NCBI GenBank assembly: GCA_020436125.1
Contig: JAGQYK010000017.1
Location: forward strand, 1-50,366
Direction: 5' to 3'
Length of the DNA: 50,366 nucleotides
From: Cyclobacteriaceae bacterium
Lineage (GTDB): Bacteria; Bacteroidota; Bacteroidia; Cytophagales; Cyclobacteriaceae
Shown here in pieces: positions 14,673 through 24,881 of this stretch. The notes under the pieces were generated by a model, which was not told the DNA's origin, searched no databases, and was given only the letters and a program-made list of their open reading frames with translations. Each line of letters opens with the position of its first letter. Within the stretch, counting starts at the first letter, position 1. A program made the position numbers and the translations under genes.

Positions 14673-17600
14673 ATGGGGTTTAAAGAAGATTTCAGCAGTA
14701 TTCTTGAAAAAAAACGTGCCCAGCTTGAGTTGATTGCTACCCGCATCAATAAGAGCAAGAAGTCTGGAACCTTCTATCGCTACAGCCCCCAAAAAAGGAA
14801 TTCTCTGCTATTCAAGTTTAAAAAACTCACCCGAAAGGTGGATCAGTTGAGGTGGCAAATGAAACTGGCCGCAGTGGGAGGAACGATTGCTGCACTCGGC
14901 AATACCCAAGATGCATTGGCACAAGCACCTATAGGACCTTTTGTCAACCAAGGCCGCGCTTCCAATCCTTTAAGATATCCCTTACAAGGAAACCGATTGA
15001 GGCCTGCCATTATAGACCTTGACAATGACGGGGACTATGATATTGTTGTTGGTGGTGACATTCAAGGTGGTAGCCAGTATGACATGAAGGTGTATGAAAA
15101 TGTGGGCACCAATACCAACCCCAAGTTCAATGACTATGACCTGGTAGATACAGATTTAAATACACTTTACTTAACAGGGCAAGGATCACCTTCATTTGCT
15201 GATCTTAACGGAGACGGCCTCATGGATCTGATTGTGGGTGTAACAGGAAGTGTTGATCGTATCCAATATTTTGTTAACAATGGAGGCACCCAATTAGGTG
15301 AAGGAGCTGGCCGAATTACCTTTACTGATCAATCAGATGCCCCTTGGGATAATGTTGCCAAAACCGGCAACCCGTTCTATGGTATCAATTCTAATTTACC
15401 TGGTTCTGATCCTGTTCCCTTCCTAATCGATTTTGATGGTGATGGCGACATGGACGTTTTCATTGGTCATGATTATGACCAGATTGATGCGGGTGTAACC
15501 AGCGTACACTATTATGAAAATGATGGAAACAGTAACTTTTCGCTAACATCCTTTACCACATCCCCTATTATTGACAATGGTTTTTCCAATTACAGTGCCA
15601 CTCCTGTTTTCGCAGATATAGATCAGGATGGCAACCTGGATTTTATCATGGGCAGACAATATGGCGATGTTCGCTTTTTTAAGGGAAATGGTACCAGTTT
15701 CACCGAACAAGCCGGCTCCTGGGATCCCGTAGCCAAAACCGGTAATCCCTTTGATGGCATTGATTTTGGTTACCAATCTGCTCCAGCTTTTGCCGATCTT
15801 GACAATGATGGAGACTTAGACATGGTTTTTGGAGCCACTTTCAGCAGCTATAAATACAAGGTAGGTGACAATGATGGGCTTAATTACTTCATCAATCAGG
15901 GAAATGCAGTTTTTGAACAGCAACTTAAATTAGATAACCCATTCAATGGCATTACCCTTTTTGACAACTCCACTGCATATTTTGCCGATATGGACGGGGA
16001 TGGAGATCTGGACGCACTGTTAGGTGGGAAATACGATGGGGCTCAATATTTCATCAATGAAAACAATGGCTTCGTTCGGGGAGAAGGCATTGATAATCCA
16101 TTTAATGATATCGACTTTAGTGGAGATCCCGTCAAGCCTGTACTTATTGATATCGATGGTGATGGCGACCTTGATTTGCTCAATGCCACCTACTTTGAGG
16201 ACATTCAATTTTTCCAAAACAATGAAGGCGTATATGAATTGCAAGAGGTTTCACCTTTTTCAGATATCAACCTGGACTTTGACTCTACTATTGACTTTGT
16301 AGACATTGATAATGACGGTGACTTTGATTTGTTTGTATTCGCTGATGATGGAACTGCTGCTTTTTACAGGAATACTGGAGATGCAGAGAATCCCGAATTT
16401 GAAGCGCCCACAGATCCAACAGAAAACCCCTTGGATGCCTCTTATATACCAGAATTAGGAACCCTGTTTCCATACAATTTATTAGCACGTTTCGTAGACG
16501 TTGACAATGACGGAGATTTTGATATTCTTTTAGGCGCTTATTATTATGTAGATAATTATACCCACGGAGATAACGTTTACTATATAGAGAATACAGGTTC
16601 TCCAGAAGCGCCAGTCTTTGTTTTACACAGTACTCCAATTATTTCCGACACGGACTATCGCCCCTATCCTGGTTTAGCAGATGCGGATGGTGATGGTGAT
16701 CTTGATATTTTCCTAGGTAATACATACGGCACTTTTAAATACTTTGTTAATAATAACCCGGCTGCTGTTCCCACCGTTTCAAGTAATGTGCTCAGCTACA
16801 CATTTGGTTCGGGAGCTCAAGTTTTAGACGCCAACCTCACTCTAGCTGATCAGGACAATGATAAAATCGTTCAAGCTACCGTGTCCATCCAAAGTTTTCA
16901 ACCTGGCGATGAGGTTTTGACTTTTACCCCTCAAGCCCCGGTGACAGGCAGTTTTAATACCACTACCGGAGTGCTCACCTTACAGGGAAATGCGCCTTTG
17001 GCTACCTATCAGTCCATATTGCGCACAGTGGCCTATGAATATACAGGTGCTGATCCTGGTGCACGAAAAGGAAGTGCTGGAAAAATCAAAGCATTGTCAA
17101 GAACCATTGCTTTTGCTGTAATTGATGCTGACAAAACTATTGGTCAATCTGCTTCCAGAACGGTGAATGTTGCCTCGCAACCGAAAAACCCACCAGTGAT
17201 CACAAGTAGCACTTTGAGAACAGTGATCAATGCCAACGCATCTGTTGATCTTAACACCATTATTTCCGATCCAGATGGAAATTTAGATCCGCTCTCATTC
17301 AAGGTTATTCCCAATGTTTCACCTACACCTTCCAGGGTAGGAAATGCTACCATTGCCAATGCTTTGTTGACCATTGATTATGTGGGTACCAACTTTGTAG
17401 GAACTGATTTTGTCACTATTGAAGCTTGTGATCTGGATGGACTTTGCGCCAATGCAGAATTGAGTATTGAGGTGGCAGGAAGTGTTATAGTGAGAAACGG
17501 AATGTCACCCAATGGTGACGGATTAAATGAATACTTCCAACTGGATAACATCACCACACTTGGTGCTGAGAATAAGGTAAGCATTTTTAACCGCTGGGGC

Positions 17601-17759
17601 GATAAGGTTTTTGAAGTCAATAATTACGACAACGCCAGCCGCAGGTTTGAAGGAAAGAGCGATGGTGGAAAAGAGCTTTCAAGTGGTGTATATTTTTATA
17701 AGATTGAATTTTTAAACGGACAACCTGAACTTACTGGGTACTTGACTATAAAGCGATAA
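14673..17759 (+). CDS. T9SS type B cargo: VCBS/FG-GAP repeat protein with extended N-terminus
   Basis: A 1028-residue secreted protein. Residues 1-62 are strongly basic and hydrophilic. A hydrophobic stretch (residues 64-84, ending DALAQA) looks like a signal peptide, so either the signal has an unusual N-extension or translation starts at the internal ATG at 14859. Residues about 90-700 contain at least nine FG-GAP/VCBS calcium motifs (DLDNDGDYD, DLNGDGLMD, DFDGDGDMD, DADGDGDLD), suggesting an integrin-alpha-like propeller. Cadherin-like modules follow, then the gliding-motility-associated C-terminal domain ([32 protein letters not shown]). The PorP/SprF gene starts two bases after the stop, a typical pairing for type B cargo. 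Confidence 0.92.
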   Translation: MGFKEDFSSILEKKRAQLELIATRINKSKKSGTFYRYSPQKRNSLLFKFKKLTRKVDQLRWQMKLAAVGGTIAALGNTQDALAQAPIGPFVNQGRASNPLRYPLQGNRLRPAIIDLDNDGDYDIVVGGDIQGGSQYDMKVYENVGTNTNPKFNDYDLVDTDLNTLYLTGQGSPSFADLNGDGLMDLIVGVTGSVDRIQYFVNNGGTQLGEGAGRITFTDQSDAPWDNVAKTGNPFYGINSNLPGSDPVPFLIDFDGDGDMDVFIGHDYDQIDAGVTSVHYYENDGNSNFSLTSFTTSPIIDNGFSNYSATPVFADIDQDGNLDFIMGRQYGDVRFFKGNGTSFTEQAGSWDPVAKTGNPFDGIDFGYQSAPAFADLDNDGDLDMVFGATFSSYKYKVGDNDGLNYFINQGNAVFEQQLKLDNPFNGITLFDNSTAYFADMDGDGDLDALLGGKYDGAQYFINENNGFVRGEGIDNPFNDIDFSGDPVKPVLIDIDGDGDLDLLNATYFEDIQFFQNNEGVYELQEVSPFSDINLDFDSTIDFVDIDNDGDFDLFVFADDGTAAFYRNTGDAENPEFEAPTDPTENPLDASYIPELGTLFPYNLLARFVDVDNDGDFDILLGAYYYVDNYTHGDNVYYIENTGSPEAPVFVLHSTPIISDTDYRPYPGLADADGDGDLDIFLGNTYGTFKYFVNNNPAAVPTVSSNVLSYTFGSGAQVLDANLTLADQDNDKIVQATVSIQSFQPGDEVLTFTPQAPVTGSFNTTTGVLTLQGNAPLATYQSILRTVAYEYTGADPGARKGSAGKIKALSRTIAFAVIDADKTIGQSASRTVNVASQPKNPPVITSSTLRTVINANASVDLNTIISDPDGNLDPLSFKVIPNVSPTPSRVGNATIANALLTIDYVGTNFVGTDFVTIEACDLDGLCANAELSIEVAGSVIVRNGMSPNGDGLNEYFQLDNITTLGAENKVSIFNRWGDKVFEVNNYDNASRRFEGKSDGGKELSSGVYFYKIEFLNGQPELTGYLTIKR

Positions 17760-17761
17760 GC

Positions 17762-18673
17762 ATGAAAAAAATTTTACTCGTCACCATTATCAACCTTGCT
17801 TTCTTAAGCTTAAGCTTTGCCCAGCAAGACCCACTGTACTCACAGTACATCAATAACCCAATGGTAATCAATCCCGCCTACGCAGGATTGAACAATAACC
17901 TGAATGCTTCGATTTCCTATCGTACCCAATGGGGCGGCTTTGAAGGTAACCCCACTACGGTCAATGCCAACGGACATATCTCATTGGTAGACAACCGTGT
18001 AGGAGCTGGGTTACTTATCGTACAGGACAAGATTGGAAACGCCACCAATACGGAGTTTCAGGTAGCTGGATCCTACAAATTGCAACTAGAGGACATGACC
18101 TTTAGTTTTGGTATGCAGGCAGGTTTGATCAACTTTCAAAGCAACTATAACCAGTTGAACCTGGCAGATCCAGGTGATCCAGCATTTACAGGCAATGAAA
18201 ACCTAAGTAAACCCAACATCGGAGCAGGTGTAGCCCTTAAAAGTGAAAGATTTTTCGTGGGTTTATCAGTACCCCGCCTTTTAAGCACCACCTTCAAAAG
18301 TAGCATGGGTGAGCAGTTTGATTTGTATAACCAGCATTACTATCTGTTTGGTGCCTATGTCTTCAACATGGGCACGCGTATCCGATTAAAGCCAGGAATA
18401 TTATTAAAATCAGTGAAGGGGTCTCCCCTATCGACCGACCTTAATTTCAACGTGAATATTGACCAGTTGTATACTGCAGGCGTGTTTACGCGGAACTTCA
18501 ACACGTATGGCATTCAATTGCAGGCGCTCCTTAAAGAGCAGTTCCGTCTTGGATATACTTTCGAAATTCCAACAGCAGCATCAGTAGGAACACAATTCAA
18601 CACCCATGAGATTATGCTGGGAATCAGAATGTCTGTACTTAATTTCCACGACCGATCCATCAGTAATTTCTAG
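17762..18673 (+). CDS. PorP/SprF-family type IX secretion system membrane protein
   Basis: A 303-residue outer-membrane protein with signal peptide MKKILLVTIINLAFLSLSFA and the family opening QQDPLYSQYINNPMVINPAYAG. The rest alternates amphipathic strands (for example GAGLLIVQDKIGNATNTEFQVAGSY), consistent with a beta-barrel. PorP/SprF proteins are T9SS components, and SprF-like copies next to type B cargo genes are thought to help export that cargo. It is two bases downstream of a type B cargo gene and probably co-transcribed with it. The genome likely has several paralogues, so this one may serve the neighbouring cargo. Confidence 0.95.
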   Translation: MKKILLVTIINLAFLSLSFAQQDPLYSQYINNPMVINPAYAGLNNNLNASISYRTQWGGFEGNPTTVNANGHISLVDNRVGAGLLIVQDKIGNATNTEFQVAGSYKLQLEDMTFSFGMQAGLINFQSNYNQLNLADPGDPAFTGNENLSKPNIGAGVALKSERFFVGLSVPRLLSTTFKSSMGEQFDLYNQHYYLFGAYVFNMGTRIRLKPGILLKSVKGSPLSTDLNFNVNIDQLYTAGVFTRNFNTYGIQLQALLKEQFRLGYTFEIPTAASVGTQFNTHEIMLGIRMSVLNFHDRSISNF

Positions 18674-18737: not shown

Positions 18738-19148
18738 ATGAAGGTAGCGGTATCCCGTAAGGAACATTTTAATGCAGCCCACAGGCTTTACAATCCTGAT
18801 TGGACTGATGAAAAAAATGATCTGGTCTTTGGAAAGTGTAATAATCCCAATTTCCATGGCCACAATTATGAATTAATTGTAACGCTTATTGGTGAACCCG
18901 ACTCTAATACCGGATATGTGTTTGATATGAAGGTGCTAAGTGACCTCATTAAAGAACATATTCTTAAACAATTTGATCACAAGAATCTTAATCTAGATGT
19001 TGTCTATTTTAAGTCCATGAATCCTACAGCTGAAAACATAGCTATTGTGATTTGGAGAATCTTAAGACAGCAGATAGACGATAAATTTGACCTTAAAATC
19101 AAACTCTATGAGACAGAAAGAAATTTCGTTGAATATCCAGTCCATTAA
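18738..19148 (+). CDS. 6-pyruvoyltetrahydropterin synthase / QueD family protein
   Basis: A 136-residue enzyme of the PTPS fold acting on 7,8-dihydroneopterin triphosphate. Zinc ligands are H15, H40 and H42 (FHGHNYEL), with candidate catalytic C34, the D80-H81 pair and E126 (YETERNF). The spacing CNNPNFHGH leaves five residues between Cys and HGH, as in eukaryotic PTPS; classical QueD has CxxxHGH. The product may therefore be 6-pyruvoyltetrahydropterin (biopterin-type) rather than 6-carboxytetrahydropterin for queuosine. The gene overlaps folE, whose product supplies its substrate. No sepiapterin reductase or queC/queE is in the window, so the pathway assignment remains open. Confidence 0.88.
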   Translation: MKVAVSRKEHFNAAHRLYNPDWTDEKNDLVFGKCNNPNFHGHNYELIVTLIGEPDSNTGYVFDMKVLSDLIKEHILKQFDHKNLNLDVVYFKSMNPTAENIAIVIWRILRQQIDDKFDLKIKLYETERNFVEYPVH

Positions 19149-19797
19149 GCCTCTGGATGATGAATTTGATGACGATCACGTTCTGTCTTCATGGGAAACC
19201 CCTGTAAGGCCGGATGCCTTTGATCTGGATGACGACCAGAAAGTGGATAAAATTGAAAAGCATTTCAAAGAGATCATGACTATTCTGGGCCTTGATCTTA
19301 CGGATGACAGCTTAGCAGGTACACCACGAAGAGTGGCTAAAATGTATGTGAAAGAGGTTTTTAGCGGCTTGAATCCTAAAAACAGACCGCATGCGCGCTT
19401 GTTTGACAACAAGTACAACTACGATCAAATGTTGGTAGAAAAGGACATCACTTTTTATAGCCATTGTGAGCATCACTTTGTTCCTATTTATGGTAAAGCC
19501 CACGTGTCCTATTTTTCTACAGGCAAAGTGATAGGTTTGTCTAAAATCAACCGCATTGTACAATACTATGCTAAAAGACCACAAGTGCAGGAGCGTCTTA
19601 CCGTGCAGATTGGCAAGGAAATCGAACGCGCATTAAACACTCCACATGTTGGAGTCGTGATCGATGCCAACCACATGTGTGTGGCCTCAAGAGGCGTTGG
19701 AGACACCAATAGTAAAACGGGAACAGCATACTTCTCCGGAAAGTTCAAAGACGAGAACGTAAAGCGAGAATTCCTCAATTATATCAATAGTAAGTAA
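19108..19797 (+). CDS. folE: GTP cyclohydrolase I
   Basis: A 229-residue type I GTP cyclohydrolase making dihydroneopterin triphosphate for folate and other pterins. The zinc and active-site residues are in SHCEHHFVPIYG and in NHMCVASRGVGD; also present are GTPRRVAKMY and GLSKINRIVQYYAKRPQVQERLT. An in-frame TTG at 19087 would lengthen it by seven residues, but ATG at 19108 is preferred. Either way the start lies inside the upstream PTPS-like gene (41-base overlap), so the two are translationally coupled. The acidic 45-residue N-terminus before the conserved core is typical of Bacteroidota FolE. Confidence 0.95.
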   Translation: MRQKEISLNIQSIKPLDDEFDDDHVLSSWETPVRPDAFDLDDDQKVDKIEKHFKEIMTILGLDLTDDSLAGTPRRVAKMYVKEVFSGLNPKNRPHARLFDNKYNYDQMLVEKDITFYSHCEHHFVPIYGKAHVSYFSTGKVIGLSKINRIVQYYAKRPQVQERLTVQIGKEIERALNTPHVGVVIDANHMCVASRGVGDTNSKTGTAYFSGKFKDENVKREFLNYINSK

Positions 19798-19937: not shown

Positions 19938-22607
19938 ATGGTGTTCGATTTAGACATGATAAAGGCCGCATATAAAGCAATGCCTGGCCGCATTGAAAAA
20001 GCAAGAAAAGTGGCTGGCAGACCACTGACGCTAACAGAAAAAATTCTCTATTCTCACCTCCATGCCGATCAGCCTATGGAGAAGTTCGGTCGCGGTAAAT
20101 CATACGTAGAGTTTACTCCCGATCGTGTAGCCATGCAGGATGCTACCGCTCAAATGGCCTTGTTACAATTCATGTCTGCAGGAATTCCCAAAGTAAAAGT
20201 CCCCTCCACTGTTCATTGTGATCACCTCATTTTGGCAAAAGACGGAGCTAAAAAAGATTTAAAGGACTCCATTACTGCCAGTGGCGAAGTATTTAATTTT
20301 CTGGAATCTGTATCTAATAAATACGGAATTGGGTTCTGGAAACCTGGAGCCGGTATTATTCATCAGGTAGTATTGGAAAACTATGCATTCCCCGGAGGCA
20401 TGATGATAGGTACCGATTCCCATACTGTAAATGCAGGAGGTCTTGGAATGATAGCCATCGGTGTAGGTGGAGCTGATGCCGTGGATGTAATGGCGGGCAT
20501 GCCATGGGAACTTAAATTCCCTAAACTCATTGGAGTAAAACTTACTGGCAACCTCAGTGGCTGGACAGCTTCTAAAGACGTTATTCTTAAAGTAGCGGGC
20601 ATACTTACCGTGAAAGGCGGAACAGGTGCTGTCGTTGAATATTTTGGGCCCGGTGCCAGTAGTCTTTCCTGTACAGGAAAAGGAACTATCTGTAACATGG
20701 GTGCAGAAATTGGCGCAACCACTTCTACATTTGGTTATGACCAAAAGATGGCTGAATACCTCAGAGGTACTGGCAGAAAAGAAGTGGCAGACCTTGCAGA
20801 TAAAGTCAAAGAACACTTAACAGGAGATCCTGAAGTATATGCTAATCCTGAGCGATACTTTGATGAGGTCATAGAAATTGATCTCTCTACATTGGAGCCA
20901 CACGTGAATGGTCCTTTTACTCCAGACAGAGCCATTCCCATTTCAAAATTTGCTGAAGAAGTAAAAGCCAACAACTGGCCGCAAAGATTAGAGGTAGGAT
21001 TGATCGGATCCTGTACGAACTCGTCTTATGAAGATATTTCCAGATCCGCTTCAATTGCCCAACAAGCTGTTGATAAAAAACTGAAAGCTAAAGCAGAGTT
21101 TACGATTACTCCTGGATCTGAAATGGTAAGATATACCGTGGACAGAGATGGGTACCTTGGTACATTTGAAAAAATGGGAGGCGTAGTATTGGCCAACGCT
21201 TGTGGTCCTTGTATCGGACAATGGGCACGCCACACCAACGACCCTACTAGAAAAAACTCTATCATTACTTCTTTCAATAGAAATTTTGCCAAACGAAATG
21301 ATGGTAACCCCAATACGCATTCATTTGTAGCTTCTCCTGAAATCACGACCGCCTTTGCAATTGCTGGTGACCTTACTTTCAATCCATTGACCGACAAGCT
21401 CACTAATGAAGATGGAGAACAAGTGATGCTGGATGAGCCACGTGGTGTTGAGTTTCCACCCAAAGGATTTGATGTAAAAGATCCAGGTTACCTTGCTCCT
21501 GCTAAAGACGGAAGTAAAGTGCAGGTAAAGATTGCGAATGATTCAAAACGATTACAAGCTTTGAGTCCCTTTCAACCTTGGGATGGTAAGAACCTTATGG
21601 GAATGAAGTTGTTGATCAAGGCCAAAGGAAAGTGTACGACTGATCACATTTCCATGGCTGGTCCCTGGTTGAGATTCAGAGGACATCTTGACAACATCTC
21701 CAACAATACCCTAACCGGTGCGCAGAATTTCTTTAACGAAAAAACAGACAGTGTCAAAAACCAACTGACAGGGCAATACGGCTCAGTACCTGATACGCAA
21801 CGTGCTTACAAAAAAGCTGGAGTACCAACCATCGTTGTAGGAGATCACAATTATGGTGAAGGTTCTTCTCGTGAACATGCTGCGATGCAGCCACGCCACT
21901 TGGGTGTTCGTGTTATTCTAGTGAAATCATTCGCCCGTATCCATGAAACCAACTTGAAAAAGCAAGGAATGCTGGGATTGACGTTTGCCAACGAGGCCGA
22001 CTACAATAAAATTCAGGAAGACGACACCATCGATATCATTGACTTAGAAAGCTTTGCTCCTAACAAGCAACTGACATTGGTACTTCATCATGCAGACGGA
22101 AGTAAGGATACAATTAAGGTGAACCATACCTACAATGAAGGACAAATCGGTTGGTTTAAAGCAGGCTCTGCATTGAACCTGATCGCCAAGTCTCCTGATC
22201 AGCCAAAGAAAAAGGCGACCAAGAAAGCAAGTAAAAAAGCAGCAAAAAAGAAGGCCACAAGCAAAGCTTCTCCAAATAAAAAAGTGAAAAAAGTGGCCAA
22301 GAAAGCAGCCGCCAAGAAAAAGACTTCACCAAAAAAGGTAAAGAAAAAGGCCACTAAAAAGGCAGTAAGCAAGAAAAAAACCTCACCGAAGAAAAAGGTT
22401 GTGAAGAAAGTGAAAAAAGCGGCTAAGAAGGTTACACGCAAGGCCGCTAAAAAGACTAAGAAGGTGGTGCGTAAAGTGAAGAAGGTGGCCAAGAAAGTAA
22501 AGAAGTCAGCCAGAAAGACTGCCAAAAAGGTGGTGAAGTCAGCTAAAAAAGTAAAAAGAAAAGTAGCTAAGAAAGTAAATAGAAAATCGAGCAAGAGGAG
22601 AAAATAG
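19938..22607 (+). CDS. Aconitate hydratase (mitochondrial-type) with histone-H1-like C-terminal tail
   Basis: An 889-residue protein. Residues 1-755 are a complete aconitase interconverting citrate and isocitrate in the TCA cycle: iron-sulfur ligands in [10 protein letters not shown] and in [10 protein letters not shown], the conserved [10 protein letters not shown], and the swivel-domain loop [22 protein letters not shown]. The length and sequence match the mitochondrial/bacterial AcnA_mito class. Residues 756-889 form an unbroken tail of Lys, Ala, Val, Thr, Ser, Arg, Pro and Asn with no acidic residue, resembling histone H1 or AlgP tails. The reading frame is continuous, so the fusion is not a frameshift artefact of the track. 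The ferritin gene follows after six bases. The tail could bind DNA, RNA or polyphosphate (inference). Confidence 0.95.
22203..22604 (+). other. Histone-H1/AlgP-like tail region of the aconitase
   Basis: This encodes 134 residues (756-889) built from loose repeats of [21 protein letters not shown] and two TSPKK elements. Lys and Arg dominate, and Asp and Glu are absent. The DNA is a purine-rich AAG/AAA/GCT/GTG codon run, and the long reverse-strand frame over it is only a shadow. The low-complexity sequence could vary in length between strains. Confidence 0.9.
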
Positions 22608-22613
22608 TTATTT

Positions 22614-23171
22614 ATGAAAAAGCAATCAAAACAGATGATCACCCCTACGCGGTCCCTGACAAAGGAAACGGAAGCTTTGCTGAACAAGCAAATCATGATG
22701 GAGGGTACTTCATCTGCCTATTACCTTTCAATGGCATCATGGTGTGAAACCCAGGGTTACGAAGTAAGCAGTCAGTTTTTGTACAATCATTCCGAAGAGG
22801 AAAGAATGCATATGCTCAAACTGTTTAAATATGTGAACACGGCTGGCGGCCATGCGCATCAACCTGAAGTAACTGGCATTAAACATACCTTTAAAAGTTT
22901 GAGAGAGGTTTTTGACCAGACGTTAAAGCACGAAATTGCGGTAACCGAATCGATCAATGAATTAGTTGATCATTGTTTTAAAATTAAGGACTTCGCTACC
23001 TTCAACTTTCTACAATGGTTCGTTAGTGAACAACGTGAAGAAGAAACTATTGCCCGTAGGGCGGTAGAACTTTTTGATCTAATTGGAGAAGAAGGAGTCG
23101 GGCTCTTTATGATTGATCAGGAGATAGGAAAATTGGAAGCCTACGCTGCCAAAGTATCGCAAAGCGAATAA
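22614..23171 (+). CDS. Ferritin (FtnA-type, non-heme)
   Basis: A 185-residue ferritin forming an iron-storage shell. Residues matching the ferroxidase centre of E. coli FtnA are all present at constant offset: E30, Y37, E63, H66, E107, Q140 and E143, so it should be active. The N-terminus has a 13-residue extension (MKKQSKQMITPTR) not usual in FtnA. It starts six bases after the aconitase stop and is followed by a strong terminator, so the two genes form an operon. Both products depend on cellular iron, a meaningful link. ATG at 22614 is the obvious start. Confidence 0.95.
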   Translation: MKKQSKQMITPTRSLTKETEALLNKQIMMEGTSSAYYLSMASWCETQGYEVSSQFLYNHSEEERMHMLKLFKYVNTAGGHAHQPEVTGIKHTFKSLREVFDQTLKHEIAVTESINELVDHCFKIKDFATFNFLQWFVSEQREEETIARRAVELFDLIGEEGVGLFMIDQEIGKLEAYAAKVSQSE

Positions 23172-23229: not shown

Positions 23230-23865
23230 TTAAATAATTTCTTTAAGGATTACTCTCAGTTCATTCAGCATCATTGCGGTTGCCCCCCAAACCACTTCAT
23301 TGTCTATACTAAAGTGTGGCGCATTCATCTGATAGGTTTTGGCAGCTATAATTTCCCTTTTCAACATGGCTTCATCAGGTAGAATGGATTCAATATCACC
23401 ATGCAATATTCTGGCTACTTCAATGGGGTCAGCTACTAGTTCCGGCTTGCGTTCAGCATACCCAACAATGGGCACTACCATAAAATTACTAGGGATCACG
23501 AAGAAATTACTCAGTCTGCCAATCACTTTTACTTCGCTTATATCTATCCCGATTTCCTCATTCCCTTCCCTTAGAGCAGTAGCTACACTATCTTCCTCCC
23601 CTTCCTTCTTCCCTCCCGGAAAACTGATTTGACCACTATGCATGCCTGAATAATCTGGTCTTTTGATCAATGGGAAAATAATTCGATCAGCATCGGGGTA
23701 AAGTACAATCAAGACACTCCCAGATTTGGGTGGCGTCTTGTGGGCAAAGTTGGGCATCTTATTGCCGACAGGAACTGCCCGCATCATCTCATGAGCGGCA
23801 GGTCCAGGTAAAGGCCCTTGGAGTCTACGCTCCAATTGATCTATCAACTTCCCAAAATCTATCAT
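23230..23865 (-). CDS. Nudix hydrolase, CoA pyrophosphatase-like
   Basis: A 211-residue Nudix protein. The box GX5EX7REUXEEXGU is present at residues 85-107 (GKKEGEEDSVATALREGNEE followed by IGI), and the preceding SGMHSGQISFPGGK is the CoA-pyrophosphatase (NudL/Pcd1) signature. It probably cleaves CoA or acyl-CoA to 4'-phosphopantetheine derivatives and adenosine 3',5'-bisphosphate. A GTG two codons upstream (23871) is possible, but ATG at 23865 overlaps the upstream TPR gene stop as ATGA, so that start is chosen. Co-transcribed with the TPR lipoprotein. Confidence 0.9.
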   Translation of the reverse strand: MIDFGKLIDQLERRLQGPLPGPAAHEMMRAVPVGNKMPNFAHKTPPKSGSVLIVLYPDADRIIFPLIKRPDYSGMHSGQISFPGGKKEGEEDSVATALREGNEEIGIDISEVKVIGRLSNFFVIPSNFMVVPIVGYAERKPELVADPIEVARILHGDIESILPDEAMLKREIIAAKTYQMNAPHFSIDNEVVWGATAMMLNELRVILKEII

Positions 23866-24881
23866 TGACACACTTTGATTAAGTCAACAGTCAACATCCC
23901 ATCACCTGCTTCTTCCGATAACCTAAATTGTTCACAAGCCATTACTTGCTTGTTATTCTTATAATAAGCCATCCCCAGATAGAAATGAATTTTATCAATG
24001 AAAGATTCCATTTCTTTAGCCTGAGTTAATAGTCGCTCTGCATTGGGGTAATCTCCTTTCATCAGATAATAGATTCCTTTATTACGGTACGCCCAACCAT
24101 TCTCGGGATCGGTGCTCAAGCTGGCGTTAATATCTTCCTCTGCTTCCTCTAGTCTATTCTGAATGAGGTAAATAAATCCCCGGTTGTTCATAAAGTAGGG
24201 TTCAGCAGGGATCAATTCAAGTGCTTTGTTCACCTGTTTCAAAGCTTCTTCCATATCATTTTGATCAATCGCTATCAGGGCCAGCGTATTATATATGTTC
24301 GCTTCGGATCGATCCAAATCTATTGCCTTACTCAAATCAGCTATTGCAGCATCATAATCCTTCAAATAGTATTTAACGTTAGCCAGATTGACCAAAAATT
24401 CCACGTTATCCCCATCCACTGCAAAAGCCTTTTCAAAGGATTTTTTTGCCAAGTCAAAATTACGAAGCTTCGTTTGTACAAGACCTCGGGTAAAATGAAC
24501 AATTGCGGTATCGGAATGAGCTGCCTCAATTCGATCCAGATCATTTAGGGCACTGTAATACTCCTTGAGCTCATAAAAGGTGTTGGCTCTATTGTAAAAT
24601 GTGGGCAGATAATCAGGGTCACAATTAATGGCCTCCTGATACTGAGTAAGGGCCTGATCAAATTTACCTTGTTGGAACAAGGCAGTACCCAGGTTGTTTA
24701 ATCCCTCAGTAAAGCAAGGTTCAATTCGAATGGCCTCCTTGTAATAACTAATCCCCTGATCGTAGTTTTTGTTATTAATTTCATTATTCCCCTTGATAAG
24801 GAACTTTTGAAGTCTGCTTTCCTTGCTTTCGGTACAGGCCACCAACCCGATAAGAAGAATAAGTATGTATACTTTATGCAT
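23862..24881 (-). CDS. TPR-repeat lipoprotein
   Basis: A 339-residue protein. The N-terminus MHKVYILILLIGLVAC is a lipoprotein signal with lipobox LVAC, so the mature protein is anchored at Cys16. The rest is about eight tetratricopeptide repeats (for example NLGTALFQQGKFDQALTQYQ, YNRANTFYELKEYYSALNDL, AYRNKGIYYLMKGDYPNAER), a protein-protein interaction scaffold. A TTG start at 24899 would add six residues and spoil the signal, so ATG at 24881 is chosen. Partner unknown. Confidence 0.9.
   Translation of the reverse strand: MHKVYILILLIGLVACTESKESRLQKFLIKGNNEINNKNYDQGISYYKEAIRIEPCFTEGLNNLGTALFQQGKFDQALTQYQEAINCDPDYLPTFYNRANTFYELKEYYSALNDLDRIEAAHSDTAIVHFTRGLVQTKLRNFDLAKKSFEKAFAVDGDNVEFLVNLANVKYYLKDYDAAIADLSKAIDLDRSEANIYNTLALIAIDQNDMEEALKQVNKALELIPAEPYFMNNRGFIYLIQNRLEEAEEDINASLSTDPENGWAYRNKGIYYLMKGDYPNAERLLTQAKEMESFIDKIHFYLGMAYYKNNKQVMACEQFRLSEEAGDGMLTVDLIKVCQ

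Follow-up and report, generated by a model that had tools for sequence, protein, structure and literature searches.

The aconitase encoded in a 50,366-nucleotide stretch of DNA from a Cyclobacteriaceae bacterium (NCBI GenBank assembly GCA_020436125.1, contig JAGQYK010000017.1; hereafter the window) ends in a lysine-rich tail resembling histone H1, and, as judged from protein trees, this tail tracks the organism rather than the lineage of the enzyme that carries it. The conservation of the tail despite an exchanged enzyme body suggests that the enzymes bearing it are held on DNA or on another negatively charged polymer. Bacterial proteins concerned with DNA or with granules are known to bear H1-like tails, and the carriers here are an enzyme of the TCA cycle and a peroxiredoxin of the Bcp/PrxQ type. 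The features of the window that bear on this are collected in Table 1.

Table 1. Features around the tailed aconitase, in window positions.
Feature	Position	Strand	Details
6-Pyruvoyl tetrahydropterin synthase-like protein	18738..19148	+	Conserved upstream neighbour
GTP cyclohydrolase I (FolE)	19087..19797	+	Conserved upstream neighbour; landmark of the aconitase locus for type A and type B alike
Aconitase with tail, complete ORF	19938-22607	+	889 aa, without internal stop
Aconitase catalytic body	19938..22202	+	Residues 1-755; mitochondrial type, enzyme type A
Histone-H1-like K/A/V/R tail	22203-22604	+	134 aa free of Asp and Glu; disorder predicted by AlphaFold2
Ferritin gene	22614-23171	+	Starts 6 bases past the aconitase stop; Pfam Ferritin E 7e-36
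NUDIX protein	23230..23871	-	Frequent downstream neighbour

A preliminary description of this DNA had claimed a complete aconitase followed in frame by a tail without acidic residues, and this is borne out by the reading frame, by composition, by Pfam (Aconitase at residues 34-477, Aconitase_C at residues 556-686) and by the TIGR01340 model of mitochondrial-type aconitases, which the protein matches with 1136 bits over residues 12-749 against a curated cut-off of 825.35 bits. The nearest solved structures are those of the 5acn group of aconitases (1025 bits), and since this alignment also covers residues 12-749, the tail starts right past the native C-terminus. C359, C422 and C425, which we take to be the iron-sulphur cluster ligands, and the SSREH loop with S643-S644, presumably active-site residues in the catalytic serine loop, show no variation among 38 aligned sequences. 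The enzyme is predicted to be an active and otherwise ordinary TCA-cycle aconitase, and the only other aconitase-family match in its genome (4.2 Mb in 216 contigs, 92% complete) is a 512 aa protein taken as LeuC. IRP1, AcnA and AcnB bind RNA via the enzyme body; the window aconitase is like them in being an aconitase with a possible nucleic-acid role but belongs to another subfamily, falling outside that of IRP1/AcnA (TIGR01341, 252 bits against a cut-off of 945) and under the cut-offs of both the AcnA and AcnB models.

Lysine makes up 64 of the 134 tail residues, encoded by 32 AAA and 32 AAG codons, and a run of this length free of Asp and Glu would be expected by chance at about 9e-8 given the D/E frequency of the core itself. 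AlphaFold2, run with 38 aligned relatives, assigns pLDDT below 50 to residues 753-889 in a model with moderate core confidence (mean pLDDT 68.3 over the whole protein). Composition and predicted disorder together give the window tail the properties of an H1-like or AlgP-like terminal domain, rich in K and A and free of acidic residues, and the H1/AlgP-like character attributed to it earlier holds. Because the tail alone finds nothing in Pfam better than E 1.3, we liken it to the H1-like kind and do not place it as a member of a family.

We searched for the aconitase in 116 related genomes. The same-genus sample comprises 62 genomes including the window's own, with a readable C-terminus in 55 (the other 7 being G004, G010, G021, G029, G047, G057 and G058), and 52 of these 55 have a K/A/V-rich tail of 43-140 aa. 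Among 43 genomes from other genera and families of the order Cytophagales none has the tail, the longest overhang being 13 residues. The tails in 52 of 55 same-genus genomes rule out assembly error as their source. Chance low complexity in all proteins is likewise ruled out: among 400 mechanically called ORFs in same-genus loci, 51 have K/R-rich ends and all 51 are aconitases, with none among the other 349 and none among 263 ORFs called in the same way in loci of other taxa. In one same-genus genome, G016 (small, 2.8 Mb), the aconitase tail is plainly absent and that of Bcp is retained, so the aconitase tail is dispensable in at least one genome. Downstream of this tail-less aconitase (locus L087) lies a tandem array of ~24-bp units, AATAAGCTAGTTTTCATACAACAG-like. 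In G013 and G024 (loci L089 and L096), the tail stops after 26 residues and the Lys-rich reading goes on in other frames; both assemblies have the same early stop, which is probably a sequencing error in A-runs.

Similar tails occur more widely. A family search covered 390 genomes, of which 340 matched, and of 20 loci fetched from the best 150 of the 340, mostly picked for long frames, 16 are tailed (genera g46, g217, g281, g273, g234 and g225). A phylum search covered 395 genomes with 189 matches, and of 20 loci fetched, again mostly long-frame picks, 7 are tailed: two from g46, 3/3 from f39, 1/2 from f36 and 1/2 from f50, the last three being further families of the phylum. Tails are present in 8 of 80 named loci, including Flammeovirgaceae UBA2371, Fulvivirgaceae JP3-4 and a Chryseolinea MAG.

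Across the 70 tails with complete cores, length ranges from 43 to 155 residues (median 87), composition is 41.8% K, 21.6% A, 12.4% V, 5.2% P, 5.0% T, 4.6% S and 2.7% R, the combined K+R share is 34-58%, and D/E are absent from 50. Neutral low-complexity growth by slippage of A-rich DNA could account for the wide variation in length and sequence between relatives (43-155 aa) and for the shifted frame inside the tail in G013 and G024. The share of AAA among Lys codons is, however, lower in tails than in cores (0.529 vs 0.653), and since AAA is the rarer in tails we conclude that the tail is kept at the protein level and was not made by poly-A slippage. The mixture of AAA and AAG, the near absence of D/E, the reading in frame in 52 of 55 genomes with one clear loss in 55 and the presence of the tail on both of the enzyme lineages described below all make slippage very improbable. 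The tail sequence is too simple to prove common descent.

On a large core tree of 133 aconitase rows, with 5 fragments excluded and 2 rows left without a score, the distribution of the tail requires at least 5 changes. On a more careful tree of 30 rows, the family's tailed aconitases fall into clade A, which includes that of the window, and clade B, separated by tail-less enzymes, and a single tailed clade is rejected (p-AU 2.1e-5). The RpoB tree covers 29 of these 30 organisms, without that of the window, whose rpoB is a 77-residue fragment, and with partial RpoB sequences for G017 and G684. It instead unites all 19 members of the tailed group, G016 included, in one clade with support of 100/100. 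Within this clade, types A and B are intermixed, and monophyly of A is rejected (p-AU 6.4e-51). A tail that tracks the organism while the body differs is a rare natural experiment, in which selection acting on the tail is separated from that acting on the enzyme.

G732, the closest organism without a tail, shares the folE neighbourhood and has an aconitase core resembling type A; type A therefore looks native, and type B would have entered from another part of the order. FolE lies upstream at 12/16 type-A and 12/17 type-B loci compared, as well as in G732. Three pairs of a B and an A organism are closer in RpoB and FolE than in the aconitase: identities in RpoB, FolE and aconitase body are 95.0%, 94.8% and 78.2% for G059 vs G020, both tailed; 96.0, 87.7 and 74.2 for G647 vs G684; and 94.6, 88.6 and 73.6 for G565 vs G573. 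In a contrast pair in which both are A (G046 vs G684), RpoB and aconitase are 87.6 and 88.0 identical. These identities indicate that the body has been exchanged at the same site in several organisms, and whichever type is resident is tailed; alternatively, an ancestor may have had both types and its descendants may have lost one or the other. A further pair, G030 and G034, differs in the site of the aconitase and illustrates type mixing, not in-place exchange. The linker after AGSALN reads L-I/M-A in 20/20 type-A enzymes and mostly A/K-M-G in type B, a count that assigns the fragments G053, G014 and G019, which resemble A, to B by default. Since the linker goes with the enzyme type, tails seem to move together with their enzyme bodies, and their history may comprise either two gains or a single gain with one transfer from one type to the other.

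As a protein query the tail is weak, giving any match (E up to 1) in only 3 of 8 genomes and missing most known tails, so DNA patterns were used to search for further arrays. The looser DNA pattern is near background, with 66 matches vs 49 for the reversed pattern in the closed genome G041 and 32 vs 47 in the tail-less G078, and only clustered matches are informative. In the window's genome, the pattern search returned few K/A arrays: those of the aconitase, Bcp, a DksA/TraR zinc-finger protein with an N-terminal Lys array of ~90 residues (L350, contig C136), small H1-like proteins and a Lys-rich 114-residue protein. Clustered motifs occur at five places in G041 (aconitase, an H1-like protein, a SWIB-domain protein, Bcp and a 21-residue peptide), and G078 has one place with two pattern matches. 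SWIB/MDM2-domain proteins with an N-terminal K/A array are found in four tail-clade genomes (L339 in G041, L361 in G761, L376 in G565 and L463 in G692), and small stand-alone H1-like K/A proteins, several with an APAP-rich end and one only 21 residues long, in G041 (L338, L340), the window's own genome (L351, L352), G016 (L359) and G647 (L384). Among 19 of 29 pattern matches read in five sister tail-less genomes, by a pattern that would miss other array spellings, there are no H1-like arrays apart from the Lys-rich end of one PAP2-like protein. G647 also encodes a TfoX_N-like protein, under the Pfam cut-off, with a Lys-rich C-terminal tail (L364).

The Bcp/PrxQ-type peroxiredoxin of the window's genome (L035:973-1542, contig C55) has a K/A-rich tail of 41 residues. 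A Bcp tail of 20-53 residues is present in all 40 tail-clade genomes read, that of G001 being poor in lysine; in 12 further tail-clade genomes Bcp was assessed by frame length only, and the search in G667 gave no match. Of 18 family members with a tail-less aconitase (8 by reading the aconitase, 10 assigned by frame lengths of 757-780), none has a tailed Bcp, the overhang being 0-1 residue. Second Bcp copies in G644, G565 and G647, 63-65% identical, are tail-less, and in G170 and G188 the aconitase is tailed and Bcp is not. That two unrelated enzymes carry the tail would also be expected if it built an enzyme assembly or tuned stability, abundance or membrane contact by its charge, with no nucleic-acid partner, and V and A at short spacing could conceivably form an amphipathic helix. 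This explanation is nonetheless improbable in view of the predicted disorder of the tail, its near lack of acidic residues and the use of the same array to make stand-alone H1-like proteins.

The small H1-like, SWIB and DksA-like array carriers fit a nucleic-acid or nucleoid role. Our preferred reading, to which we give an even chance, takes the tail as a tether that binds polyanions in the manner of histone H1, AlgP and PhaF and would hold aconitase and Bcp most likely on the nucleoid. A disordered K/A/V chain of ~40-155 residues would bind non-specifically, driven by charge, and aconitase and, by the same device, Bcp would be held on the nucleoid beside the small H1-like and SWIB array proteins. 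A plausible use would be the retention of an iron-sulphur enzyme together with a peroxide scavenger near DNA, much as yeast mitochondrial aconitase protects mtDNA.

Counter to a nucleoid tether, a +60 tail would bind RNA, ribosomes or polyphosphate too. If the partner were RNA, ribosomes or RNA condensates and not DNA, aconitase would be placed near translation; a Lys-rich disordered chain is blind to the type of nucleic acid, and bacterial aconitases and animal IRP1 bind RNA (for IRP1, PMC7463775 and PMC11431987). We consider this unlikely, since the other array carriers, H1-like and SWIB proteins, point more to DNA and ferritin is uncoupled from the tail. The tail might instead anchor the enzymes on polyphosphate granules or be a target of polyphosphate, as in AlgP, which has the same kind of tail, sits on polyphosphate granules and needs its C-terminus for granule spacing (PMC9239181). 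We found no link of aconitase or Bcp to polyphosphate in these genomes, in a search that did not extend to polyphosphate kinase genes, and regard this partner as a poor prospect.

Tethering of the preferred kind has precedents that differ from the present case in informative ways. In Pseudomonas, AlgP and PhaF have KPAA tails that serve in DNA binding and granule positioning (PMC9239181), and like the proteins described here both combine a folded N-terminal portion with a long disordered C-terminal tail rich in K and A. That portion is a helical or phasin domain and the repeats are KPAA, whereas here the body is a metabolic enzyme and the tail is built of KK[AV]x without regular proline. Actinobacterial HupB/HupS and TopA have Lys-rich C-terminal tails or repeats on proteins acting on DNA, and their bodies already bind or process DNA, unlike aconitase and peroxiredoxin. 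Yeast Aco1 of the mtDNA nucleoid belongs to the same aconitase subfamily by the TIGR01340 model and binds and protects mtDNA independently of catalysis; unlike the window protein, it has no polylysine tail described in the parts available of these sources (PMC7463775, PMC11431987), and the tail-less relatives in our sample stop at the native C-terminus.

A bolder proposal, which we advance tentatively and think rather doubtful, is that metabolic enzymes have been made chromatin components: an H1-like module shared with the small H1-like and SWIB proteins would have been joined to aconitase and peroxiredoxin on one branch of the species tree and kept through repeated replacement of the aconitase body, since both enzymes would be needed on the nucleoid. 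If true, bacteria would have arrived by another route at a counterpart of the aconitase-bearing mitochondrial nucleoid of yeast. The old question of aconitase on nucleic acid in mitochondria and bacteria becomes testable through removal of one disordered segment clear of the active site. The parts are of known kinds, and their union and its evolution seem new to description: in line with the earlier remark that no such aconitase was known to have been described, our searches of open-access full text brought up neither a Lys-rich or H1-like tail or C-terminal extension on an aconitase nor a Lys-tailed peroxiredoxin.

The ferritin gene was recognized from the start, six bases after the aconitase and with its ferroxidase residues intact, and the residues that we take to be the ferroxidase ligands align with Campylobacter ferritin 1krq. 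It had been proposed that the tail could bring aconitase to nucleic acid and tie TCA flux or iron status to the nucleoid or to ferritin mRNA. The first part of this interpretation is supported, in that the tail is real and conserved and the other carriers fit such a role; the special tie to ferritin is not. An iron-responsive switch coupling aconitase to ferritin mRNA would draw on the adjacency of the two genes in the window, in 9 more same-genus loci and beside the tailed aconitases of three g46 genomes (G677, G761 and G757). Ferritin, however, adjoins the aconitase in only 10 of 55 same-genus loci, window included, with cores of both types, and it is missing from the other 45, of which 39 have at least 1.5 kb of downstream sequence. 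The putative ferritin operon as the key to the tail is rejected on this count, and ferritin is probably a frequent but incidental neighbour and not part of the tail's function. Because Bcp is also tailed in the same organisms, a general tether is favoured over an aconitase-specific iron sensor, and we find the coupling to ferritin mRNA hardly credible. Elsewhere in the window, positions 14673-18673 encode a large secreted-type repeat protein and then a PorP/SprF type IX secretion protein.
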